Assembly: GCA_963930775.1 (NCBI GenBank)
Contig: OZ005692.1
Location: forward strand, 10,025,029 to 10,089,028
Origin: Cliona cf. orientalis
Taxonomy: Eukaryota; Porifera; Demospongiae; Clionaida; Clionaidae
DNA: 64,000 nt
Reading direction: 5' to 3'
The translations under genes were made by a program, and so were the position numbers. Positions 1,786 to 63,032 of this stretch are shown here, one piece after another; position 1 is the first letter of the stretch; each line of letters starts with the position of its first letter. The notes under the pieces are model-generated. The model made no database searches. It was not told the DNA's origin and worked only from the letters and a program-made list of their open reading frames with translations.

Positions 1786-41799
<40,014 letters not shown>

Positions 41800-43668: not shown

Positions 43669-44479
43669 CCTTCACTGACCATGCTCATAACATTAACGTC
43701 TAACAAACCCCTCAATCTGGTCAATTAGTATCGCTAGGCAACGGCACATGCACACCTGAGTGCTGGACACACCATATAAGGGCATAGGTGTAACATTAGC
43801 CATACAAAAAACGTCACCTACAATATATTCTATAGCAGTAATAATATGTACGTTGCACTAAGTAGTGTCTAGCATTGTATTCAGTCCAAGGCATAATCTA
43901 CATGACTGGACCATCAGCCAAAATAATAAACTACTGTAACATGTGCGATAATTCCATGGTGTTAAATAGACACCTACAGTATATATACACATAATTTAAG
44001 CATACAGTAGACTACAATATGAGGCACATTAGCATACACTATGATGTAGCATATAAAATTATGTCAGAGTTTACGTGTCCTGTCTAGCTCTATAGCAGGT
44101 GGGGGCATCACCCAGAATATTATATTATTATACCCAATACTAAGGTGCATGGTTGACTATTGTTCGAAGAGGCCGCCTCCCATTGGAGGTGGCTGGCCTC
44201 TTGCCAAAGTGAATGGTGCAGTACTTGCATATTGTAGGGGAGGGAAAGCGGCAGTGATGTAATTATTACATCATTGTATACGCATAGTACATGTGTATGT
44301 GTGTATATACGTATGTGATGTGAGTTTTTGAATGTGTGTGTCATGTCATGTTTGTGTGCGTTTCTACGGCTTTGTGATTGTTAGCTTGTAAATGTCTTGA
44401 TAAGGGCTTGTTGAAAGATTGTAGAAGTCTTGTTAGATATGAACAAGCTGAGCAAATAACAGATCGAGGGCTCTCTGTC

Positions 44480-44528
44480 CCCCCCTCTCTCTCCCTCACT
44501 GCCTCCCTCTCTCTCTCTCTCTCTCTCT

Positions 44529-44559
<31 letters not shown>

Positions 44560-44665
44560 CCTCTCTCCCTCTCTCTCCCTCTCCCTCCCTCACTCTCTCT
44601 CTCTCTCCCTCTCCCTCCCTCTCTCTCCCTCCCTCTCTCTCTCTCTCTCTCCCTCAATCACTGCC
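44480..44665. repeat. CT/CCCT pyrimidine tract
   Basis: Impure (CT)n and (CCCT)n blocks. Confidence 0.9.
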
Positions 44666-45369
44666 TCCCTCATAACACAATGGCTGGTGGCATGCAACAA
44701 CTTGCTAACATGAGAACGTACTCTGCTATAAAAACATTTAAACATGTCGTAAGTAAAAGGCACCAATTACAGGCTACACACATGTATACACACACTCACA
44801 AACAAACATATACACATTAATTTTGCATAATAATATCATTAGTAACACAAAGAGGCTTACAATGTCATGTGTTTTGGCAGGTATACATATTGGGGGGCTA
44901 GAGTAAATCCATTCGGTTATTACTAGTGGAGCAAGCAGTTTCTCCCAAAACCGTTCAGTGTACACTGTCAAAAAGTTGTAATAATAAACAAGCTAGCTTG
45001 GTGCTGTTGTCCACTTGGGCTATTTGTAAAAAATCACATCTGAGTCAACTTATGTGAGATAGCCAACACGATCAAGGTACGTATCTCATCAAGTTATCAG
45101 CTATTATTGAAAACTTGACAGCCGACTTTCATGATCAACCCCTGAGTATAAACCTATAATACGTATATTATAGTTTCTTATCATGGTATTAGCTGATACA
45201 GGATAAAAAGTTGGCCACATGTGGTGATCATTCAGAAAATAACACATCTATCAAAGCTTGATACGTACTATAATAATAATAGGTGCTTGGCTCAATAGTT
45301 GTAAGTAGTCAACTAGTTTCAGAATAGTGGAATCAAACTTGAAGGAAAGGCTTACTATTATTGTAATAA

Positions 45370-45578
<209 letters not shown>

Positions 45579-45747
45579 TATTTACCACAAATCAGTGATG
45601 GTTTGACCACACGAATACTTGTGGGATCTGCAGATGACTAAATTAGGGAGTTGGCCATTCAATGGAACACTGACTCTACACACCTGTGGAATCATGCATG
45701 CTACATGTGGCTGGGGTAAGGTAATCTAACAGTTAACCATCGATGTA

Positions 45748-45750
<3 letters not shown>

Positions 45751-45790
<40 letters not shown>
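45751..45790. repeat. (AC)n microsatellite
   Basis: About 20 AC units. Confidence 0.95.
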
Positions 45791-45795
<5 letters not shown>

Positions 45796-46038
45796 TATAA
45801 TATGCTTGTACACATGTCTACACATCTAAAATACATGCACTCTTAATTGTAAGAAGAAGAACATAATGAGATTCCTTTACCGCATCCGTGATTCTCAAAA
45901 TCATGACCATTTAATGGCTTTGTTTACAACTACGATAGCAACACTCTTGTCTTCACACGTGCATATGAAGATGTACATGTATGCATGATATTAGTGAGGC
46001 TGGTATGGCTTTATTATACAGCTTCTTTGATATACATA

Positions 46039-46224
<186 letters not shown>

Positions 46225-47006
46225 CCTCTTCTGAAACACCGTAATGAATATTTATTGCACCAAAGCAGTGTGCCATTAGTGCTAATCTTCTGCTAATAAC
46301 AGTCTACACTGGTATGGGCTCAGCAGCTAATTAAAACTGGCCTATAGTACTCACAGGCCACTGCATGGTGCACTGGCGTAAATTGGAGCCAATAATATAA
46401 CAACATCAATTATGGCCTTGTCAACAATGCTGGGTCTCTAGACGCTACAAATCTATCATACTAATGCACATGCACGCACTCTCAAAATATACACATTCAC
46501 ATAATATAATATCACCTACATTCTCGTACAGCATTGAGAGCAACCTTCACGGACTTAAAAGATAATAGCAGGGGCAACCCTTCACTTTATGTAATTAATA
46601 CTCTTGTTGCCACATACATGTACGGGCACGCTCATAATTACTATAGTGGTCGATGTGAAATACTAGAGGGCTGAGGTATGGGGACAATCCAAATACCACG
46701 ATAAAGGGAGTATAATATTTCAGGTCAACAGATCTGTGGTAAATGTACTATCATACGTCACATAATTATCATTGGAGTGATAACCACAAGTCTTAGACCA
46801 CTATCCAGCTCCCAGGCTGCAGTGTATGTATGCTATCCAGCATTCAACATTGAGGAATGGGAGCAGGGATAACCTCTGTAATTATGGAATACTTGATGAT
46901 GGTGCGTATGCATAGTCTAGTAGACAAGGAATAGTTGTGTTGGTATTTGAAACATAGTACAATCACATTATTCTGTTTATGTTTCTCTGCATACCAGAGA
47001 AACATG

Positions 47007-48163: not shown

Positions 48164-48756
48164 ATGGACGAAACTAAGACACTCGATCTGTAAGTCTAAC
48201 TCAGTCTAGCGACTTGGATGTTTTGTGTGATGATATTTATGTGTGTACAGTGAGCTTAGAGTTCCGTTTGAGACCGGTTTCCAAGCTGAGGTGGCCTACA
48301 ACACGCTAGTCGTGGATCCAGAGCCACGGAGGTCAGAGGTCAAGAAGACGCTGCGAGTCGATGGAAGCGTACTTCACGTGTAAGTACTACCATAATACGA
48401 CACTGACTAGCGATTTGCAAAATTTGCTATGCAAAATTAATAGCCACATACGGTACTAAAAACGCGTTTTGGGGGTGCTAAAGTTGGGCGATTTTGACAC
48501 CGAAATGGTACAGGGTCGACAATTATGTTCTGCTAGCACAATCCGCAGATATATCAAACGTACCCGCAAAAATTTATGACATTCAGTTTTAAGGCACAGT
48601 AGATGGATTTTAATCTGTGGGTGTTATACATAATTCCATAGGTCATTCTCTGCGAGAGAGGCCAGGATGTTGCGTGTTGCAGTGGGGTCTTTTTTCGACT
48701 ATCTCGCTCTAGTAACGGACACGATCCGGGAGTTTGGTGGACAAGAAAGAACATAA
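48164..48756 (+). CDS. Pcc1 / LAGE3, KEOPS (EKC) complex subunit
   Basis: Three exons: 48164-48189, 48251-48379, 48642-48756. Both introns are GT-AG and the phases join cleanly, giving 89 residues. The protein has the Pcc1 signature: ELRVPFETGFQAEVAYNTL, then VDPEPRR and KTLRVDGSVLHVSFSAREAR, and the C-terminal helix MLRVAVGSFFDYLALVTDTI with REFGGQ. Pcc1 is the dimerising small subunit of KEOPS, which makes the t6A modification at position 37 of ANN-decoding tRNAs. The length matches yeast and archaeal forms (80-90 residues) rather than the longer mammalian LAGE3. A poly(A) signal follows at 48838. Confidence 0.93.
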
Positions 48757-48843: not shown

Positions 48844-48905
48844 ATTGTTTACTTGAGTTTCAACTACTAGAGCAACACTTTGGATTAATTACTACTTCAA
48901 AGGTA

Positions 48906-49174
48906 TTAGGTGTCTTCATCATTATTATAGCTTTGAAGACGTGGGTCTTGTGCTTTTCTAGGAGGGTTGTCGTTAAGTATACTACAATAGGCTGCATTTT
49001 CTTCAACTTGTATCTCTGGCCCAATTGCATCGTCTCCTAAAAGATTCAATAATTAACATTATGCTATATTCATACCTTTAGGCTTATGCATATTTCCATA
49101 GGCCATGTTTTCTTGTATAGTTGCGATTGGTACTTCATAGTGGAGGGCTCCTCTTGAGTTATAATAATTACTGA
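48906..49174 (-). CDS. Tyrosine-rich cytoplasmic-tail-like exons (parent gene uncertain)
   Basis: Two minus-strand exons, 49174-49076 and 49036-48906, join at ctaaag|gtatga and cttttag|gagac in matching phase, giving 75 residues ending at TAA. Tyrosine-centred motifs repeat: HYEVPIATI, ENMAYGNMH, ENAAYCSIL and QSYNND. This pattern is typical of receptor tails with SH2/PTB docking sites. The exons lie 234 bp 3' of the Eph-like gene's terminal exon on the same strand and could be alternative last exons of that gene. However, no donor of the right phase was found in its hydrophobic segment, so the link is unproven. The 5' acceptor (actaag at 49175) has a weak pyrimidine tract. Confidence 0.5.
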
Positions 49175-49407
49175 CTTAGTCCTCTTATGGACCAGTAGTA
49201 TTGTAGGCTAGATAGATATTAAACTAAAGAGTCTAGACTCTATACTTTCTTGATCTCAATAATTATTATACAACACATGCTATGTCATGCATACACAGTC
49301 AGTAATCATGTGGTCTGATATAAAGAGTATAGACAAGACCACAAAAAATTTAATGATAATAATAAGGAATTGCTACGTACAGTACTATAGCTACTTGTAG
49401 TAGCAGT

Positions 49408-52400
49408 CTAAGCTACCAGAAATATCAAGACGAATACTGAAGGCACCGTGATGGTTGCCACCAGGACACCTATTGATAGTGCTGCTGAATTTATGCCAGT
49501 CATAGCCGCTGTGGTTTCAGAATTCAACGTCATAGCTAGACTCGTTTCTGAATACAACGTTGTAGAATCAGAATTCATTGTCATAGTTGCTGTGGTTTCA
49601 GAATTCAATGTTGTAGCTGGTGTAGTTTCTAAATTGAACACCATACTAGCTGCTGTGCTTTCTGAGTTCATTGTCGTAGTTGCTGTGATTTCTGAGCATA
49701 ACAATAATTGTAATAATCGTGGTGACCTTCAGCTTTGAATAATATGTGTGCAAAGCAAATCTTCTCCGGAGAAGATTTGCTTTGCACAAATATTCATAAT
49801 AATTACATCCCCAGTATAAATTTACTTTTTTGCGGTTATTAGGTAATTATGTTGTAACCTATGTCGTCATAGCGCTAAAATTCAGAGCCTTTACAGAACA
49901 CTTCTGAGACCTGAAAATCCACAGAATCATATATTAACTTACATACATATCCAGCGAATATATTAAAAGCTGAGTGCTACTTTCTCCGACAAGGAATGCT
50001 GGCCGAACTTCACGCGTTCTCTTGGCTGACGTAATCCTGTGGATAAATAAAGCTAGCCTTGCGCTATTTATAGCACGCGTCATGCCACGACCGATTTGAA
50101 GTTCGGAAGCTGTACTATGCTGTCGAGTTCATCTCCTTTGATTGAAGCATCGAAATTCGAAGTCGAAAGTTGATCTTAGACTCCATCTCTGCGATTGAGG
50201 CCCCGGCATCGATGTGTGTATTGACGACCTTTACCACATGCACCATTAGAACTATGCAGCCACTGGGGATGTGGTCAAGGGTTCATATTATGTTAAACAC
50301 AGCTTATGGGAACTTATATTAAAGGAAGGGGACCCCCTCCGTTTAATACAAGTTCCCATAAGCTATGTGTTCAACTGGAAGTTGCGACTACTATTGACTA
50401 GTAGTTGAGACAAGGATTCCCCCCACAGAAACAATAGGCCTGATTATAATATTTATGATATCATTGGTTTTAATCTCATGCATGAAGTGTTGATCAGATG
50501 CGTATAATAATACCGTGTTTATTCAAATGGAACACAAGCTAAAAAAATTTCAAATTTCACGCGATTTTGAGGTCTACATTAAGATACAATCCTATAGAAC
50601 ACGAATTTTCTTGTGCTAGTTAATAATTAGATCATGCATTTTATTAGCATAAAGCTATAGCCAATAGCCTTGCAATCAGGGTATGGGTGTGCAGGTCAGG
50701 GAACTAAAACTTAAATACTTGTTTCCTTATCAGTATACACTAAGCCCTCACTTATGCCTGATTTATGTGCACGGAGTTAAAAACCTTAAAACCATAAAAG
50801 CTAGTTTTATAAGCAAATATTTCAAGTACTAAGTAGGTCCCATATCAAGGCTTAATTTGGGGCAAAAATGGTCGAATTTTTGTTGATTAAAACCAGTCTT
50901 TGTGGTTTTTAAACTGAATTAAGGTATTTAGCTTCAGATACAAGTCTCCATGGTATACATTGTTTAGGAATTTTTTTTGTGATTTGCAGCCATTATAGAC
51001 TGTTGTTCATAGATTTTAGATGCTTTAGTGGGATTCTAAAGGTTTTAGGAGATCTTAGGATTTTAGAGGTTTTAGTGGGACTTCATGAGACTGATGTTAG
51101 AATTTTTAGTGTGGGATTTTAGGATTTTAGAGGCTTTAGTAGGTTTTAGAGGTTTTAGTAGGTCTCAGCAGGATTTTAGAGGTTTTATTAGGTCTCAGCA
51201 GGATTTTAGTGGTTTTAGTAGGTCTCAGCAGGATTTAGTGGTTTTAGTAGGTCTTAGCAGGATTTTAGAGGTTGTGTAATAGGATTTTAGAGGTTTTATT
51301 AGGTCTCACCGTCTCAGCAGGATTTTATAGAGGTTTTATTAGGTCTCAGCAGGATTTTAGTGGTTTTAGTAGGTCTTTGTAGGATTTGAGGTTATAATAG
51401 GATTTTAGAGGTCTTAGCAGGTTTTAGTAGGTCTCGGCAGGATTTTAGAGGTCACAGCAGGATGTTAAACCAGTCAAGCTTAAACCCATAGACATGCATG
51501 ATTGAGACCTTAGTAGAATGTTGGCGTAGTCAATCCTAGTGATGTTGTGGCCTAATTGCAGTCTAGTCTAATATACGCACAGTGCTTAAAACCATAAAGA
51601 CTAGTTTTATAAGCAAATAATTTAAGTAAGTAGGCCCCATATCAAGCCACATCAGGCAAAAACGAGGGCTTAGCGTATACTGCATCCTTTCCTATGATAC
51701 TATTACTATGTTTAAGCACAAGATCTAATTAGCACAAGAAAATTCACATTCTAGGATTTCTGGCTCCAAAGCTCATAATTACACCATGAATTTCGTCAAG
51801 CAGGATGGTCTTATGGTAAAATCTATGACATTAGCTATAGTGACCAAATTAATAGCTATAATAGCTCATATAATTATTATTAGGAACACAATAAACAATA
51901 GTTATTATATTATTATATTAAAGCTTACGTTCACATGTTTTGTTAGATAGCGAGAAACCAGCACTGCATCTACAGCCAGCATTGGGTACACGATTCCAAA
52001 CGCTTTCACTCAAGCAGATTACACGTGAAACATTTCCATTTTCAGGTTCTGCGTTGGCTACACAACTTGCTGTGACTAGAATCCCTGATTGACCTTCTGC
52101 AGGGGCAAACGTCTCGGGATAGATAATCAAGTCAGCCGTTTGCTGAGGACAGAAGTGATAGAACACTATCAATCGAGTGACCACAATGCAAGTGGCCTCA
52201 TCTTGAATGGCAAAGTAGAAGGAGGAATGATCAGTAGAAAAATTAATTGTGACAGTTTCATTCACTCTTGCTCCATTGGTGACATCTGATGAAACTCTTT
52301 GCACTTGTCGGTAGTTACTGATATTTCTTGCTGCAGTGCCATTCTCTGTAGATGTCTCATAGATGTGTGTATTGAAGGTTTGCTGGCAGTTCAAGGTGAC

Positions 52401-52959
52401 GTCACAGTTTTGTAGTCTAAGCTCTATCATCACGCTGACTTGAGGTAGCCTTGTTCCATCGACTGTCCTGTTGATGAGCTGTGTGATCAGCCAGTTGTCC
52501 TGTGGACCGGCAATGAACCCACACACTTGGACAGACTGTGTACATGCAGTGTTGGATTGCTGAATCCACTGTTACAGGATACATAATAATAATAATAATA
52601 TTATTATAATAATTATTATAGCAAAGAGGAGCAGGACCAATGCTTAAAATATTAATAATATTATAAGCATACAATTATAGATAGCTTATTATTATGAAAC
52701 TTACATTGGTTGTTAAACTTGGATCATTATTCATATCATTGTCCACCTGGTCCCACACAGCCCCAGTGAGGGGACGGAGAAGACTGCGATAGTTCCAGGA
52801 GTCCATCAACACCCCCATGTTGGTGGAGTAGGCCGGTGTTGGGACAACTCCAGTTGCTCTCAGCTGTTCACACAGTACCTCCTCATCTCCAGGGGCTACT
52901 GTTTTAACTATCGTGCAGAGATGCAATGATAACACTAGAAAGAAGTTTAAGAGAACCAT
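49408..52959 (-). CDS. Kinase-less Eph-like protein (Ephrin receptor ligand-binding domain)
   Basis: Exons 52959-52705, 52568-51929 and 49691-49408 join in phase (0, then 1) to give 392 residues. A signal peptide (MVLLNFFLVLSLHLC) precedes an Eph ligand-binding domain over about residues 22-245. Its landmarks are SWNYRSLL, VWDQVDND, VCGFIAGPQDNWLITQLI, LQNCDVTLNCQQTF, SSFYFAIQDEATCIVVTRL and VFYHFCPQQTADLIIYPE. The Cys-rich segment that follows (SCVANAE, GCRCSAGFSLSNKTCER) matches the start of the Eph cysteine-rich region. The last exon is a Thr/Ser/Asn-rich stalk of about 70 residues with repeated LNSETTA-like units. It ends in a hydrophobic segment (SIGVLVATITVPSVFVLIFL) that stops two residues later, as in GPI-anchor signals. 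Fibronectin III, kinase and SAM domains are not present in the read exons. Further exons in the 2.2-kb second intron cannot be excluded. Confidence 0.85.
49747..49788. repeat. 42-bp perfect palindrome
   Basis: tgtgcaaagcaaatcttctcc followed directly by its exact complement, with no spacer. It lies next to the left end of the 490-bp dispersed repeat, in an intron of the Eph-like gene. Confidence 0.9.
49798..50287. repeat. Dispersed 490-bp repeat, copy 1
   Basis: From aataattacatccccagtat to tggtcaagggttcata, nearly identical to 55360-55863 (about 97% by eye; a few small indels). It has subterminal inverted acatccccagt words and contains gacgacctttacc. No coding frame. A mobile element of unassigned class. 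Confidence 0.8.
50294..50371. mobile_element. Short foldback (hairpin) element
   Basis: Arms aacacagcttatgggaactt and aagttcccataagctatgtg with tattaaa/tttaata next to a centre of ggaaggggaccccctcc. It lies directly beside repeat copy 1 but not copy 2. Confidence 0.6.
50511..50655. mobile_element. MITE of the accgtgtttatgctaat family, diverged
   Basis: taccgtgtttattcaaatgg at the left and ttattagcataaagc at the right. Shares cacgcgattttgaggtc-like and aatttcttgtgcta-like interior words with other copies. Confidence 0.55.
51056..51470. repeat. Degenerate minisatellite, about 30-bp unit
   Basis: Units such as ggattttagaggttttagta then ggtctcagca are repeated about a dozen times with variation. 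Strong strand asymmetry (G/T on plus). In the second intron of the Eph-like gene. Confidence 0.85.
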
Positions 52960-53284
52960 TTTTGCATTTCGCGCAACACACCTAGCTACTCTTTAATTTC
53001 GAAATCGTTATGTACAGAGATCCTAATTCGGGGCGAGCCTGAGCGAGCCCCGAATATTACCTATAGCTATATACACGAGAGACAGGAATAGTCTGGCGGG
53101 AGGGGCTGGCCCGCCAGGCTAAGACAGGAAGCGATTTTATTCAAAATTAATGATCAAGCGAGCCCCGAATACATGTACGTACACGCAAGAGACAGGAAGC
53201 GGTTTTATTCAAGCGAGCCACGATGTTTGTGGCCACGCCCATCATCACGGACTCGCATATCATCGGCCTAGGCATTATTTTTCG

Positions 53285-53675
53285 TAGTCTCGTGCCCAGA
53301 CCCCACCCTCGAGGAGGAAAAGGGTCTGGTGAACTTGGGCAGAATCCTTGGGCCTGCGCTGAGGAATTTCCACGCGCCAATGAGATCGTAGCTTTGGCTC
53401 AGTCATATGACAAGCTTACCGCAGGAATGCAACATCGCTATACCGTCTGTATAGCTATTCAATTTCGCCGACCAATCAGATTCAAGGTTTGCTTTACTGC
53501 CGGTTGCGGGCATGCGATCACATGCAAACACAGCCATAGCAACCAATCAGAACCAAGCTTTGCATGGGCTTGTCAGCACATATGCGCATGCGTCGTAGAA
53601 CGAGAACCGAGGATTCAGCCCAAGTTCACCAGACCCTTTTCCTCCTTTTGGGGGTGGGGTCTGGGGACGAGACTA
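53285..53675. mobile_element. Long-armed foldback element with 9-bp target duplication, copy 1
   Basis: Arms of about 57 bp start tagtctcgtgcccagacccc and end ggggtctggggacgagacta. Perfect 9-bp direct repeats (tatttttcg) flank it at 53276 and 53676. Long inverted ends plus a 9-bp duplication are the hallmark of Mutator-like elements. The interior of about 270 bp has no transposase, so it is non-autonomous. Confidence 0.85.
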
Positions 53676-53935
53676 TATTTTTCGTGGGTAGAAAAATTTC
53701 GTAACTGCCAAATCAACCACGATAAAAATAGCACGCCAGTGAGGAGAGAGTTAAATTTTGAACGCGTAAGGTAATGGTCGTTATTGCAGACATGCTGAGG
53801 TGACCTGTACAAAGCTAAAGCAAAGGTGAGTGCTGGGCCACTCTGGGCAAGGCTCAGGTCCACAATTAATATCAATATCACTGATAGGTATACTTCAGTA
53901 AAGCTTAGCATGAAGGTGACTCACTGCATGGAAGC

Positions 53936-54270
53936 TAGTCTCGCAAGCCACACCCTTCAATCTCCGCACGCGAGAAAGAGGGTCTGGTAACTTCGCATAC
54001 ATGGAGTTGTACACGCTCCAAGATCCTGGAGCGACCAATCAGATTGCAGCTTTTCAGCGTTACCATAGCGCAATAACCGCGCATTGTTATTAAACATCGC
54101 GCGCCTATATGTGAATGCTAGGCAAGCGCGCGCCGCGCAATCTAAACTTAACGTGACGTCACGTAAAACGGTCCATTATTGCATTCCAGCAGCACAACTC
54201 TAGCTCTATGTACGCGAAGTTACCAGACCCTCTTTCTCTCGGAGATTGAAGGGTGTGGCTTGCGAGACTA
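53936..54270. mobile_element. Long-armed foldback element with 9-bp target duplication, copy 2
   Basis: Arms of about 75 bp start tagtctcgcaagccacaccc and end gggtgtggcttgcgagacta, with ccagaccctctttct in both. Perfect 9-bp flanks (catggaagc). It shares tagtctcg ends and ccagaccc words with copy 1. Mutator-like, non-autonomous. Confidence 0.85.
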
Positions 54271-55359
54271 CATGGAAGCTTGTCCCCTTGCTCAGATAGG
54301 GTATCCAACGAAAAAAACAAAATTTCCAAAAACCGCTCATTTTGCGGCATTTAGCTAGCCTACTGGGACGGTCCCTAAATCTCGAATGATACTGTGCAAA
54401 ATTACTCGTATGTGGAGATACAAAAATTTTGCGTTTTTTGGCGAAATTGTCGCGCCAGATGGTTAATATGCTCCAACCTGTGATTTATTGTGGCTGCCTT
54501 ACTAAATTGATTGTCCTCATCCAGTGACAGCATGAGGAAGCGTTTACAATACTGTATAACGATGGTACCCCACGTTTTGGCGAATTTTGCCAAAATTTGG
54601 AGAATAATTAAAGTCTCGATATCTCGGCAAATGAACATGGGGGCGTGACCTGGAGTGAGAATTAGTGTTAGTCCAAGAACATCTTCGTCCTACCAGAGTT
54701 TTGAGAAGTTTTGAAAAACTTCATTTTTTTGTGTGGAAACCCTAGCTCAGATCATACAGGTAATTGGACTCATGATGGTCATACTATTAAAGCTAGCATG
54801 TAGACTACACTATTCAATCTGACACTATAGCAAGCTATGGTACTTTCATGGCGGCGACACTCCTGCGCGCGTGCAATGCATCGAGGTAAAGGACGTCAAG
54901 CTAGCTTGGAGTGCTAGTGCCAGTAATTTGAATTGCCACATGCAGTAGTCTCGCGCGCCACCATGCACCCAATCCGAGAATGAAGGGTGTGGCTAGCGGG
55001 ACTAATGCATCATAATTGTTGATTAGATCATAGTATCTGAATGCTATCCACAGGCTGATGGGACTGCAGCTGTCATCAACAATGTTATACAAACTTTCTA
55101 TAATAGATAAACAATGAGTCAGTCTTATTGGGAGTGCTCAACTGCCTTGATAAATAAACATTGGCCATTGTCCGAGTCAATCCTTTATTGAATGGCACAG
55201 TGTAGCTTATAGCTAGGCTAGTCACGCTCCACGATGCACAAGCACAATGCCAGCTCCCCTTTTGGCACTCGTTCTCAAATTATGGTCCCAATTTTCACAA
55301 GTTCTGTTCCGTGAGAGCATTAGGTAGTTAGAGGTCTACTTGGCTATCTCATGATCAGC

Positions 55360-55863
55360 AATAATTACATCCCCAGTATAAATTTACTTTTTTGCGGTTA
55401 TTAGGTAATTATGTTGTAATTATGATGTAACCTATGTCGTCATAGCGCTAAAATTCAGAGCCTTTACAGAACACTTCTGAGACCTGAAAATCCACAGAAT
55501 CATATATTAACTTACATACATATCCAGCGAATACATTAAAAGCCGAGTGCTACTTTCTCCGACAAGTAATGCCGGCCGAACTTCACGCGTTCTCTTGGCT
55601 GACGTAATCCTGTGGATAAATAAAGCTAGCCTTGCGCTATTTATAGCACGCGTCATGCCACGACCGATCTGAAGTTCGGAAGCTGTACTGTGCTGTCGAG
55701 TTCGTCTCCTTTGATTGTTGAAGCATCGAAACTCGAAGTCGAAAGTTGATCTTAGACTCCATCTCTGCGATTGAGGCCCCGGCATCGATGTGTGTATTGA
55801 CGACCTTTACCACATGCACCATTAGAACTATGCAGCCACTGGGGATGTGGTCAAGGGTTCATA
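55360..55863. repeat. Dispersed 490-bp repeat, copy 2
   Basis: Same orientation as 49798-50287. Carries a small extra ttatgatgtaa duplication near 55420. The two copies flank the Eph-like gene, so recombination between them could delete or duplicate it. Confidence 0.8.
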
Positions 55864-56321
55864 ATTATTATAATATATGTATTGCACAACTATACAATAC
55901 CTGAGGTTTCTCAAACATTCACTGGGTTAGGTAACAATTAAACTTGGGTACCATTGCAACAGCTACCTCATAAACCATCCTTATAATCGTTGTTAGTCTG
56001 AGGGTACCAGCCCCTTCACAAGAGAGAGGGAAGGGGCTGGTACCTTGTTGTATGAACTGTTTCTTTTAGAGTTGGCTTAGCTTGCCTATCATAAAATTAA
56101 TTATTATGTGTTCAAATCTGCTGCCTTTTATGGAATCATGATCAGCTATAGAGCTAGAGGAAATGGTTTGTGGGATCACCCAACCTATTGTCTTGAATGC
56201 TATAAATAGTATAGTAGTAGAGCAGTATGCTATAAATAGAAGATGATCATTATTATTAGCATACAATAAACACAGACACACAAACATAAATAATGCCATG
56301 TATAGTACAGTTCACACGTAA

Positions 56322-59300
56322 TTATAATAATGCCAAAACAATAGAAGTTAGGAGCAGAGTTAAAGTGACTGTAGAAGTTGCTGTACATGTAGCTCCATTG
56401 ACTAAATTTCCAATGGATCCAATATTATCGACTGGAAGATTGTTCTCATTGACAATTCCCGGTGGCGGTAGTCCGGTCGAGGTGGACAGAGAGTCTACTG
56501 ACAATGTCGTCGTCGTCGGCGCTGCCGTGGTGGTCGGTGCTGTGATGAAAGAATGAACACATAAAACTACATCAATACCATAATCACAGTATAACAACTT
56601 CAATGAAACATTACTACTATTGCTATAATATGGGAGAGTATATACCGTTTATTAAGGATATTAAGAAATCCCTACATAGTTGTTTGCATACATCAACTAT
56701 AGTCGAGTCCCCATCACGTTTCAGATAATATTTAATTATCAGTGTTCTCACATTCTGTACAGTAATAATTAATTTATTATTAGCTTGGTTGCTAACTCTT
56801 CTGTAACTGTTTGCATACAACCATGACCCTCAATTGTGCTACTTTAACCATCATGTCCTGTGACTATCAAATTTTGTGGTTTCACTAAGTCGAAGAACAG
56901 AACAGGTATAGATATATAGATGCACACATGATGTACATCTACAGAATATACTACTCTATGCATACTAGTACAAGCTACATACGACAAACACGAAGTCTCA
57001 AATGGTCCCTTTTCCCACAGTTGGCCACATAATAATCATGACAATTCGCTCAGTAAGGATGCTAAGAAAAGTACTCCATGCGCAATCAGCTTCTCTGGGA
57101 GCTAAACTTGATAGTACTAACTACATACTGTGACAGTTCATCATCGGTAAATAAAAAAGAGATACTCACCTGGCTCTGTCTCTGCCCCGGTGGCAACGTA
57201 TAGCACCATCTTGAATCCTTGCAAACACTCTCCGCCTGATATGTTTGTGCCGTATCCAGCAAGAAACCCACTTCCAGTTGAATAGCCTATAATGAGTGAG
57301 CGTATGGAAAAAGCAAATTTAGATTACCATGTTTTGCAACACCACCAAAATATGCTTAATCACTATTATAGCAAGTATGGGAAAGGCAATTTCAATGATA
57401 TTTGTGTTAAAGGATAGTCAGGGTATACTAAAATACTAGTAACAAGAGCAGGGTCGAAAATTATGTTTTCTAACTAATACCATAAAAGGTTGAAGTGCTT
57501 AATGATTCATTAATAGGATACCATTGTGCTTAAGTAATAAGAATGCCATAGGATCTGGTAATAGGATGAAGCAATTTGCTATGTTCCAACTGTTGCTAGA
57601 GAGAACAGACAGGCTTGATGTGGGAAGAGCACTTATGTTAGTAATTCAATTTAGCTGAAAGATTAATGTTTCCAAGGGAACCTTTCCAAATCTACAGTCA
57701 TCTGAGGCAGCTAGTGACTCATCCCAGCTGCTACAAAACTTAGCAACCATTGACTGCAAAGTACAGGTGCAGGACAACTGTCAGTACAACAAACTTTACT
57801 ATGTACATGATCTTGCTACCAAACACATAACACAGCTGTGGGAAGACTAGCTACACATCCTGTGTGTAGGGGGACCCGGCTGTTTAGCTATCATTATCGT
57901 AACTATACACTCTCTTTCCCAGGAAAGCAGGATTCACTATATTGCCTCTGTTTGTAAGGATATTATGACAATGACTCGTCCAGGATGTGGGAGCCTTGGT
58001 AAGGTACCCTCAAGGTACAGCGCACCCCCCCCCCTTGCACCCCGCTATTCAGCCGACTTGGGGGCAGCAATGGGCTACATGATTGCCAATTATAACACCG
58101 TAACTCGATACTTGGAATTGTGTGATACGTTACTGATTGTTATGGCGCTCAAATTACTATAAACTTGCTATTGTAGTTCAGTAAGAAGGGAGGGAGGGCT
58201 TGGGAGTACGACTACTACCCTACGGTGGAGTCGATAACAATCGTAATTTTGTGAATTTCTAGACGAGTGGAGGACAAGTGGAGGGTAGTCTAGTGTGTAA
58301 TTCAATAATTGGATAAGTCTGATGAGAGTAGAGGGGCCTACACATATATTCGTTTGTGAAAGCTTAGAGGGCTGATCTCACTACAAATTGATTTCAAAAT
58401 GTAGTAATATTATAGTATAGTATGGTTTGCACAGTGAGGCTGAGTCAGGCCTAGAAGGATGGCTTTCTAGTACCACTTCTAAGAAAAAAGTTTCGTAAAC
58501 TTGCGTAGGAACTTCCCATATGCACACAATGAGCACATGTACATATATGAACACATCAGCTGTGGGCCTGACCCAGGGAAATCTACTACACACACTGTAT
58601 AACTATGTACCATTCCACTATCAGAGGTCTACCAAGCTCTGTTGTGGTCTAAGTGATCTCTTTGGCTTCCCAGCAGTTTAAACCTTCAAATGGGAGTAAC
58701 TTCAGCCACAGCAGAAGATTGGCTCTCACCCAACTAAGGGCACAAAGTCTTGGTACTGGTATATGTATGGATGGGAAGAGATGGAGTCACATGATGGTAT
58801 AGCTATGTCAACAGCAGCTAGTCCATTGTCATAACAATCCAGCATCACATTGTGTTATTGCACTTTTGAAGAGCTTTCAAATGTACTTAATTGAAGGTCT
58901 TTATCAAAGCTTCATGTCGCACTTTTCTCTCTATGAATATCATCAGGAAGTTCCTAGTACTGGTACACCTATATACACAAACTAACAATACTGAATAGAA
59001 TTCTCAAGGCAGGTGATGGGACTGCAACCTGCAGGTGGACTGTTCATCAAAAGTGTGTGGGTTGACCTCTCACTGCCACACACTGAAATTTGTGTGAGAA
59101 TATTGGCCACAATTGGTTCAAATTCTATCAACATCACCTCAGAGCTGGACCACCATAACCATGATGCAAATGAAAACAAAAAGCCTCCCCCATCCCTTCC
59201 CCCCACCATAATATTATGCTCTCCACCCCTCCCCTCCCTCCCCTGCTCTCTCTATCTCCCCTCTCCCTATTTCTCCTTCAGATGTAGGGAGAAAACCAGT

Positions 59301-62300
59301 CAGCCCTCTATAGATTTCTTCTCAGCTTTTCAACATTGTATGCAATAGCTGGAAGAGAGGAACTAAAAGTAGCAAAACAAACGTGGTAGTAGCTACCAGG
59401 GAAAGTTAGCAACCGCTAGCTTCATGATGTAGTGATGCATAAAGCACTTGTTGATACAATTTCTTAACCGGTATTCGAGAGTAAACATGCATATTCTTCA
59501 TAAAAATTCGATCCTCGTGTACCAAGCACATCGAGTACAGGAAGCGTATATACATAACATAGCAATGGGAACTGAAGAGGGTCCGGGAATGAAGTTTATG
59601 AGTTCAAAAAAAAACAACAAAATAAGTAACTTTTCAGAGCAAGTTAGCAACCGTGAGCTTAGCGAGTGATGTATAAACCACTTACTGATTCCCATGGAGG
59701 GAAACTCCGGCATGAATCCATCGATCGAACTAGGAAATAACCGCGTAAATCCTTACAACAGTAGAGGTTTCCCAACTGAAACAGGAAATACATGTACTCA
59801 GCGGCATGCCAAACTCACTAGTTTCACTAGAACTACCAATACCAGAGCCATGCAATAACATGGCAAAAATTACTATACTTATTACAATAATTATACAATA
59901 GGGCTGTATATAAAATTATATAGTAAGCTTGTATGCCAAGGCAAAGCCATAATTATATATAATAAAAGGCTAACTAGAATTCTTCACAAAGTCATGAGGG
60001 GACACCACGTCATGCAGCACTGCGACCGGTACACAAAATTAATGACAATTAAACATAAGCCCTATAACAGGTAGCAAGCACTGAGTGCAGCCATGCGCAA
60101 TAATTACCGCATATAAACGGAAAAGCAACACAAATTCGAAGATCTACTATAATAGGTCAGCAACATCACATGCAAGCACCCGTGCATGTCGAAAATAATT
60201 AATATCAAGAGTAAACAGCCATAAATAGGTAGGTAGTGGATTCCACAAGCACCCATGCATGTCGAAATCATTATTCACAGGGAAATCACTATAATAGGTA
60301 GTGTATTCCACAAGCAGCCACATGCATGTCGCATACTCTGAGAGGAAAACAGGATCCATGAGAACTAGAGGTACAGCCAAGCTATGGAGGATATCAACTG
60401 GCAATGGACTAGTGTTCTACAACTTAATTGCTGTGACATGCGTGCGTGCATGCATATGCACACACTCCTAGGTACGCCGTGTAGCTATATAGTACAATGT
60501 ATATACCAGGGACCCCCTTTTGTGGGACTGGCATGCAGCTTATACCGACTATTGTGGGTAAGAACAAGATGATTGTAAGAACTATGTATCCACTCAGGTA
60601 ACCCCTTATCGATAATATAGCTACTCTTTGATCCATTTCATCTTCAGAACGTGAATTCTGGTAACACTTCCACTTTCACAAGGTTCAACCCCACCATAGT
60701 CCCCCCAGTCATTGACTGGATGGCTTCACTAACCTGGGGTTAATGCGATTTAGCAAAGAAACACAGGAGGGAGGGTGGGCAGAGTCAAGCGGGCATAATA
60801 GGGTCCATTGGCCCACAGTGGGGTCAGTTGGCTGACAGCGATAAATATTGTATTTTGAATAGACAGAGTTAAAGCACCCCCACCTCTCCGCTATTGCATA
60901 TAGCCAGGAACTGAGCTGAAATTATTGTATTGTGTATACAGTGCTTGTTGCTACTGTGTATACTCGCTCTTGTTGTGCACGCAAACACGCGCACATGTGT
61001 AGTATGCATAGGTACCGATACAAATCATGTCGTGTAAACAGAAGCAACCTGTCTCTTCTCTTCTAGCAATCTCGCAATCTCTCTCTCTCCCACTCCCTCT
61101 CCCTCCTTTCTCCATTCTTCCCTTCTCCATCTCTCTCTCCCACTCCCTCTCCCTCCCTTTCTCCATCTCTCCCTTTTCCCCCATTTTCTATTCTTCTTCT
61201 ACCTCTCACTTACTGATAAGGTAGTAGGTTTTGCCTGCTGTGAAGCTGAGGGCACTATTAAGGGAGTTGGAGTCAGTCCTGATAGCCATCAACACCTCAT
61301 CATGACAGATCTGTCTTGTGGTAGTGGTAGGTGTACAGTCCACCTGTTCCGCCATTCCTGTTGCATCACAGTTGCACTGGTCATACTGCTGAATATGCTC
61401 CTATAGAAGAACAAAGGGAAAATGTGGCTGCATGAAGTCTTTAAACTTTTGCAGAAGAAATAATCTTCCATAACCAATCCTGTAATCCTAGCAAGATGAA
61501 CTATCCCAGAGTGCCAGCTCAGCTAGGCGTAACTACGCAGAGCAAGCATGCTATGCATCTTGTCTCCAGGCCCATTCCCAGATTTCAAGTGTAAATGTTG
61601 TTAAGAGTATACTAAACATTGGAATGGGTCTGGAGACTGGGGATCGAGACATTTTAGGGGGTGGTTAGTTAGATAGAGGTGTAAATGTTCCTTCAATTAG
61701 CTCATGTGGGTGGGTCTCCTTTATTTCTCTTTTCGGTGCACTGCGACAATTAGTTGTCACCTGGCGTGCAGGTCATGTCACTACAAGCCATTTCACAGCC
61801 CATTGTGTAGGCTAGCAGCGCCCGTTTTCGTACATCATTTCACGGATGATTTCACACCTTGACGGCACACTGAGAAGCTCAAAAGAGCTGGTAATGATGT
61901 AGTCTAAGGTCTTAGTTCTAGGTGGGGGGTGGGGGGGGGGGGGCATGGTTCGGTTCAATGAGCTTCCCTAAGCAAACAATGTACCAGCGAAATGGGATAT
62001 ACCAACAGTTTATTGAGTCAGGTGCAGTGAGGTGCCCCCTTACAGCAGTTCAGTACCAAATCCCTAGAATAGAAAGATTTAGTGTAAACAGGAGGTTATG
62101 GTACACCTCGCTGTCCAAATCATACTTGCTATGATAAGTAATGGCCATCTCACTATCTATCACTGCTTGCTTGCTTATTCTGTGGTTAACAGGTAATATC
62201 AGCCCAGCAACCTGCCCCTACCTTATGGAGCTAGCTCTGACTGATGAGCTGACAGTATTGCATGCAGCACCAAAAATAAATCCACACAGCTGTACTGAGA

Positions 62301-63032
62301 TCATTACTAAGCTTAGCTATCTCCTCATCTTCGGGCCACAATCAGACATAACTGATCACCCAAAAAATTTGTGCACAAACAAGCTTGCTAGTTCGAAGGT
62401 CAGTGTATTAAAACAAGCTAGTCCTGGAAATTGAAAGATGTTTTTTTTACCTGTATCCAAATGTTGCTGGTTGCGTTGGGTGGACAGGTGATGTTGAGAT
62501 TATCGCCAAGGTAAACTCTCAAGGGAGAACTGCATATGTGTGGTATGGGACAGAAATGCAGGCAGATTCAATGATAAAGATGAAATCATTCATGATATTA
62601 TTATTTGTGATAGACAAGTTGACTAGCACTAATGCACTACAGAGATGTGTTGAAAACAGAAAAGTTATGAAGAGTTTTGATATCACACTACTATTAAAGA
62701 CACTTTCCCGGGCTCTACTGGGATTCTCTATTACCTTTTTGCGTTCTGAGTGAAGCATGGGCTTTCATGCTATATTAGATTTTATGTATGCACATGAAAC
62801 CCGCTGCATAGCTAAGTGACTATGGCAGAGATGGAGCTAGCATGCATTTATCACGTTGGCATGCATACCACACCGTATCACACTAGTACCGTTACCTTGG
62901 AGGGTACGTGGACGAGACGTTTGCAGACCAGGTGAAGTTGACCGTTCTTGTCGCTTTCGACACGGAGATCATGTGCGAGCCCTCTAGCAGCGCGAATAGC
63001 ACCGTCACAACGAAAGATATCACCAAAGTCAT
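56322..63032 (-). CDS. Ephrin with GPI-type C-terminus
   Basis: Five exons (63032-62896, 62529-62451, 61400-61214, 57286-57170, 56539-56322) join in matching phases to give 245 residues, the usual ephrin-A size. A signal peptide (MTLVISFVVTVLFALLEG) leads into RTVNFTWSANVSS, in the place of the ephrin vFWNSSNP strand. Then come YLGDNLNITCPP (compare DYLDIYCPHY), a Cys-rich middle (QCNCDATG, EQVDC, RQICHDE), LSFTAGKTYYLISYSTGSG (compare FTPGKEFKEGHSYYYIS) and GGECLQGFKMVLYV, the final ephrin strand. A Thr/Pro stalk follows, then a terminal hydrophobic stretch (STVTLTLLLTSIVLALL) with no cytoplasmic tail, as in GPI-anchored ephrins. Several N-glycosylation sites are visible. Ephrins bind Eph receptors at cell contacts; the next gene downstream on this strand carries an Eph ligand-binding domain. 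Confidence 0.88.
57287..61213. other. Ephrin intron 3, 3.9 kb
   Basis: No coding exon supported on either strand. It contains a tandem repeat at 60169-60330 and pyrimidine-rich tracts at 59195-59280 and 61070-61205. The latter adjoins the donor of exon 61400-61214. Confidence 0.6.
60169..60330. repeat. Tandem repeat, about 2.5 units of roughly 65-70 bp
   Basis: caagcacccgtgcatgtcga, caagcacccatgcatgtcga and caagcagccacatgcatgtc start successive units, with ataataggtagtgtattcca between them. Confidence 0.75.

Follow-up and report, generated by a model that had tools for sequence, protein, structure and literature searches.

Kinase-less Eph-like proteins are reported from sponges, cnidarians, ctenophores and one choanoflagellate in the portions of Krishnan et al. 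2019 (PMC6485061) available to us, which suggest adhesion as a role for such architectures, warn of partial gene models, and also cover sponge Ephs and sponge ephrins with glycosylphosphatidylinositol (GPI) sites. On sponge ephrins, the available text of Arcas et al. 2019 (PMC6993872) agrees. Neither an Eph with a GPI-type end nor linkage between Eph and ephrin genes is described in those portions of the two papers. Literature searches, with preprints and most subscription papers outside their scope, yielded a single review, on bone formation, for GPI-anchored or kinase-less Eph receptors, and nothing for Eph/ephrin microsynteny or tandem linkage in sponges. Here we analysed 64,000 nucleotides of the sponge Cliona cf. 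orientalis (the window; contig C4, OZ005692.1, positions 10025029-10089028) within a searched genome of 216.8 Mb in 149 contigs, and found an Eph-like gene with no recognizable kinase part next to an ephrin gene, both predicted to end in a GPI-type signal. Like Eph receptor tyrosine kinases, the Eph-like protein has a ligand-binding domain (LBD) and a cysteine-rich domain (CRD), both above Pfam cut-offs; unlike them, it has a GPI-type end where they have a one-pass helix and a kinase, and no EGF-like, Fn3 or kinase part was found. With the kinase-less proteins covered by the available text of PMC6485061 it shares an Eph LBD without a tyrosine kinase, differing in that the end of the gene was here read from contiguous DNA. 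We favour, with a probability of roughly 0.55 judged from sequence, the reading that the gene encodes an ephrin-binding protein tethered to the cell surface, which would send no kinase signal and would serve as a decoy or an adhesion partner.

The Eph-like gene spans 49408-52959 on the minus strand, and its three exons encode a predicted protein of 392 residues (Table 1). The assembled protein matches PF01404 (Ephrin_lbd) with 53.6 bits (3.7e-14, cut-off 27) and PF25599 (Ephrin_CRD) with 29.3 bits (9.1e-7, cut-off 27). Its best PDB chain is EphA4 (E 5.8e-19), and Eph ectodomains align across both domains. The four cysteines that form the two LBD disulphides, whose positions are given in the part of PMC6485061 seen by us, have counterparts in VQVC, QNC, LNC and ATC, all aligned with EphA4 cysteines. 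Exon 1 is 47-76% identical to the exon 1 stretches of five other C4 Eph-type genes, and exon 2 shares 53-61% identity with the 11 further type I LBD exons in the alignment; no relatives of the LBD exon were found in the prokaryote genome contigs scanned. At the junction of exons 2 and 3, a Gln codon is composed of the last base of exon 2 and the first two of exon 3, with fitting phases. An earlier sequence-only reading of this DNA had placed an Eph ligand-binding protein at these coordinates and an ephrin at 56322-63032, and had called for Ephrin and Ephrin_lbd profile searches; coordinates and strands were right for both genes, and both profiles matched above their cut-offs.

Table 1. Exons of the Eph-like and ephrin genes and other features of the window (positions within the 64,000 nucleotides).
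Feature	Position	Strand	Description
Eph-like exon 1	52705..52959	-	signal peptide (hydrophobic N-terminus) and LBD start; donor gtaagt, phase 0
Eph-like exon 2	51929..52568	-	most of Ephrin_lbd and the cysteine-rich domain; PF01404 4.2e-14, PF25599 3.4e-7
Eph-like terminal exon	49408..49691	-	Ser/Thr-rich stalk, GPI-type hydrophobic end, stop; phase-matched acceptor
Candidate alternative last exon	48906..49036	-	acidic, 42 residues, then stop; top score in the small predictor; phase fits
Ephrin exon 1	62896..63032	-	signal peptide and domain start; phase common to all four C4 ephrins
Ephrin exon 2 (79 nt)	62451..62529	-	first conserved Cys; counterparts in the three remaining C4 ephrins are 70-78% identical
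Ephrin exon 3	61214..61400	-	domain core with FTAGKTYY
Ephrin exon 4	57170..57286	-	GGEC, domain end
Ephrin exon 5	56322..56539	-	Thr/Pro-rich stalk, GPI-type hydrophobic end, stop
Open reading frame	17767..18699	+	secreted-looking protein
Open reading frame	20322..21137	+	secreted-looking protein
Open reading frame	29041..29865	+	secreted-looking protein
Simple repeats	44400..46300		long GA/CT repeats, several frames open
Pcc1/LAGE3 homologue exon	48252..48379	+	PF09341 39 bits, cut-off 20.9

The sequence-only reading would be contradicted by an Eph-like gene that continued into a kinase, and local comparison gave no sign of such a continuation. Over 104 kb of C4 around the gene, juxtamembrane and kinase pieces from two Eph-type loci on contig C8 (L040 and L041) matched nothing at better than E 0.17, in a search that covered these pieces and not SAM, and over a further 15 kb nothing at better than 0.64. 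Nor did EGF-like and Fn3 queries match near the gene at E 0.01. We relied on this local comparison with Eph kinase pieces because the genome-wide kinase family search scored 119 of 2511 candidates; among the matches listed, none lay on C4 between 10.0 and 10.3 Mb.

An Eph kinase with a SAM domain is present elsewhere in the genome. Locus L040 encodes an Eph juxtamembrane region (PF14575 over cut-off), a tyrosine kinase, SAM and an fn3 domain barely over its cut-off. The nearest LBD upstream (L006) is 60% identical to that of the window gene; its order and strand relative to the kinase part, some 13.6 kb away, suggest that the two belong to one gene. Between the two, at C8:5527835-5529442, lies a mobile-element-like open reading frame (a tyrosine recombinase by eye). 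The second Eph-type locus, L041 at C8:1.177 Mb, falls below the PF14575 cut-off, and the genome PF01404 search placed no LBD near it. That search found 25 LBD exons genome-wide (17 above cut-off, one with an in-frame stop), and Eph kinase parts were found downstream of 1 of these 25 loci. Kinase-free ends were read at five loci, namely the window gene, L002, L012, L013 and L017, from exon chains that are themselves predicted. A further locus, L005 (C8:4.85), was considered as a classical Eph and rejected: together with L037 (C8:4.849-4.862 Mb) it represents an Eph LBD gene in which, as far as the stretch was read, fn3, Ig and Calx-beta domains follow in place of a kinase, for which there was no match.

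How the Eph-like protein ends is the point on which its proposed tethering turns. We judged GPI-type ends by a rule comprising a signal peptide, a small omega site, a spacer and a hydrophobic uncharged end. The stalk and bare hydrophobic end that the sequence-only reading had described were found in both window proteins: each has a Ser/Thr-rich stretch, small residues compatible with an omega site and a hydrophobic segment that stays uncharged through to the stop, consistent with GPI anchoring of both. Ser and Thr make up 44% of the stalk of the Eph-like protein, Lys and Arg are absent from residue 300 on, and the stalk DNA contains 4.1 tandem copies of a 30-nt unit (68% matches), a repeat that keeps the frame. 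An ATTAAA signal at 49354 starts 54 nt past the stop codon. To gauge chance, we applied a terminal-exon rule (phase, Ser/Thr, hydrophobicity), fixed only after the GPI-type exon had been seen, to 238 kb on both strands. Five distinct exons passed; three belong to expected genes (the Eph-like gene, the neighbouring ephrin and one more ephrin) and two are unexplained, while the rule detected two of the four ephrins of the C4 cluster. On this basis, about 0.02 passing exons would turn up by chance in the 2.5 kb that follow exon 2, and about 0.07 in the whole 7.9 kb scanned.

Several scores weigh against this terminal exon. Its codon-model score is close to zero (1.9 over 94 codons). The candidate alternative last exon scores higher (9.5 over 42 codons), as does an open frame opposite the GPI-type exon on the other strand (23.6 over 108 codons), and a small gene predictor passed over the GPI-type exon in favour of the alternative exon. 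This home-made predictor was trained on 3420 codons and overran into the next gene at L010 and L013 and into an ephrin at L001; given these overruns, and its failure to pick the GPI exon, we took it as a guide only. The alternative exon is a possible last exon of the Eph-like gene. If exon 2 were joined to it, or if intron 2 were retained, the main product would be a secreted LBD-CRD protein, that is, a soluble antagonist. We consider this unlikely, while acknowledging that the exon fits in phase and has few equals (8 terminal exons as good in 238 kb, itself counted, with about 0.1 expected in 3 kb), and that reading through the exon 2 donor adds just three residues before a stop. Against a secreted product, the peptide of the alternative exon has no second occurrence in the genome, its polyadenylation context is weaker (AGTAAA at 48853), and its well-scoring frame is incompatible with a junction to the sole transmembrane-type exon found. 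Its one Y-x-x-I motif is within chance. A model in which the hydrophobic exon serves as a transmembrane segment ahead of the alternative exon was rejected, since the sole donor available for it, GTAGCT in phase 0, is weak and would open a frame in the alternative exon that scores -17.6.

It is very unlikely that the Eph-like gene is instead a decaying duplicate cut off after the CRD exon. Such decay would fit the lack of the EGF-like exon present in L010, L012 and L013 (and divergent in L002), and it would fit the dispersed repeat that flanks exons 1 and 2 (49791-50290 and 55360-55863, 95.6% identical). However, every exon has an open frame and usable splice sites, the stalk repeat preserves the frame, and pairwise comparisons of the LBD exon give non-synonymous divergence (dN) below synonymous divergence (dS), with dN/dS pairs of 0.25/0.90, 0.28/0.79 and 0.28/1.78, the last dS being near saturation. 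More diverged copies of the dispersed repeat occur elsewhere in the cluster and on contigs C8 and C2.

The neighbouring ephrin gene, also on the minus strand, has five exons with fitting splice phases and encodes a predicted protein of 245 residues. Its 79-nt second exon, easy to miss, was located by eye and was sought because the outer exons are out of phase without it; four domain exons with the same junctions recur in the other three C4 ephrins, revealing one exon plan. The protein matches PF00812 with 30.9 bits (2.9e-7, cut-off 25) and PDB ephrin-B2 with E 4e-4. The landmarks W, F (of LSF) and YY, which correspond to the conserved W, F, Y and Y named in the accessible part of PMC6485061, align with ephrin-B2. 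So do the first (ITC) and last (GGEC) cysteines, whereas in this one pairwise alignment the middle two do not; exon 3 holds four cysteines in 6 of the 7 ephrins of the genome and two in L032. The same alignment provides a point against ephrin binding of the familiar kind: the G-H loop reads NSLNS-A where ephrin-B2 has FSPNLWG, and the hydrophobic residues are absent. Binding may therefore be weak or of another kind.

Genome-wide, a six-frame PF00812 search at E 0.001, with one candidate scored, returned no matches, which we attribute to the small size of ephrin exons. Seven ephrin loci were nevertheless found, of which six were recovered again in a second search and the seventh, L032, reached E 0.12 only and was assigned by eye. 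Two more of those scanned pass PF00812 (L029, 37.9 bits; L030, 26.7 bits). As in the sponge ephrins of PMC6485061 and PMC6993872, so far as their available text goes, the ephrin domain is followed by a C-terminal hydrophobic segment with a predicted GPI-type site; the difference is that four of the seven ephrins here stand in one tandem array beside Eph-type genes.

On C4, the Eph-like gene and ephrin 1 of the window are followed by ephrins 2-4 at 10.097, 10.100-10.102 and 10.105 Mb, all on the minus strand, then by L001 (10.112, minus) and L002 (10.124, plus) and, beyond 10.129-10.220 Mb, a stretch outside this reading, by L012, L013 and L010 (10.226-10.231, minus). The cluster comprises at least three Eph-type and four ephrin genes, the four ephrins forming a row bordered on each side by Eph-type genes; about 150 kb away lie three further genes of Eph type. 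The sequence-only reading had presented the two window genes as a pair. A kinase-less Eph beside an ephrin, both with GPI-type ends, is indeed what was found, but the pair is not isolated. In a larger cluster, the linkage can have arisen when a single ancestral pair of neighbours was duplicated in tandem.

The co-regulation that the sequence-only reading suggested as a reason for the linkage, like decoy or cis-inhibitor action, is conjectural. At somewhat under even odds, the linkage may be without functional significance, the ancestors of the Eph and ephrin genes having been neighbours by chance and both having duplicated in place. Consistent with this, 22 of the 25 LBD exons are locally clustered. 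In an LBD tree of 22 of the 25 exons (L009 entered as the window gene, which it is; L014, L016 and L018 left out), a single group (100/99) unites the 12 'type I' rows. The Eph-type genes of C4, six in number, may be a single clade, weakly supported (78/69, 82% of bootstrap trees; bootstrap unsettled, several long branches). On the other side, random placement of 9 Eph units and 4 ephrin units yields a gap of 5 kb or less with a probability of about 0.009 (0.04 for 100 kb); these odds are suggestive only, the distance having been picked after the data were seen.

Other apparently kinase-less Eph-type genes end differently. In L002, an LBD over cut-off is followed by a Cys-rich part with no PF25599 match, an exon that is EGF-like by similarity, a helix and a YVNI-containing tail. 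LBD and CRD are over cut-off in both L012 and L013, with an EGF-like part in L013 that stays below the PF07699 cut-off. The last exons of these two genes (C4:10.224-10.231 Mb) encode a helix and tails resembling immunoreceptor tyrosine-based inhibitory motif (ITIM) tails, with VYYATV and VYYSTI or VYYNTI. Shuffled tails contain two such motifs in 2-4% of cases and 20 motif-by-tail tests were made, so the ITIM-like motifs are suggestive only; likewise, with dN 0.13 and dS 0.19 between the two tails, constraint on them is not strong. L012 and L013 are recent duplicates of each other. L001 probably continues into a helix and a short tail. On contig C17 (7.464-7.468 Mb), L017 combines an Eph LBD with a Pro/Thr-rich stalk, a helix and a short tail ending in ENPIYNKDSEK; near it, a kinase-like stretch (L049) lies on the opposite strand. 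A part of the C6 and C17 genes that looked 'Ig-like' by eye matched no Pfam family in L019.

Elsewhere in the window, the Pcc1/LAGE3 homologue exon lies past the 3' end of the Eph-like gene, on the opposite strand. The three secreted-looking proteins are mutually similar by eye, and none has a Pfam match over cut-off. An Rfam scan of the window gave no matches at gathering scores.

TRAIL-R3 (DcR1) is a GPI-anchored decoy receptor without a signalling domain. The Eph-like protein, from an unrelated family, resembles it in having a ligand-binding ectodomain, a predicted GPI anchor and no signalling domain. In the reading we favour, the gene would be paralogous to the Eph receptor kinases of this genome, having retained the ephrin-binding and cysteine-rich domains, with everything past the CRD replaced by a mucin-like stalk and a GPI signal. 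The protein would be held at the outer leaflet of the membrane, where it would bind ephrins of neighbouring cells or of the same cell; it would deliver no forward kinase signal and may compete with kinase Ephs as a decoy or adhesion partner. The neighbouring ephrin would likewise be GPI-type.

A more speculative possibility, and a long shot, is that the C4 region is a cell-recognition complex for self- or allorecognition, in which GPI-type ephrins and kinase-less Eph-type receptors would use the Eph/ephrin fold in place of immunoglobulin domains. The GPI decoy, the short tails with tyrosine motifs and the ITIM-like tails would then correspond to a decoy, activating and inhibitory receptor set. 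The idea is motivated by the recognition loci of Botryllus (fuhc) and Hydractinia (alr), where, according to the part of PMC12065747 available to us, recognition genes are grouped in one locus and some have ITIM-type tails. Those loci differ in that their receptors are built from other domains, are strongly polymorphic and have been tested for function.

If the tethered-binder reading is true, an early animal lineage has Ephs stripped of their kinase, tethered like ephrins and linked to ephrins in the genome. Contact-dependent recognition through Eph/ephrin domains could then dispense with the kinase, and the sponge would provide a natural setting in which to test whether kinase-less Ephs act as decoys or in adhesion, as has been proposed. 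The cluster would also be a candidate recognition locus whose polymorphism is directly testable.

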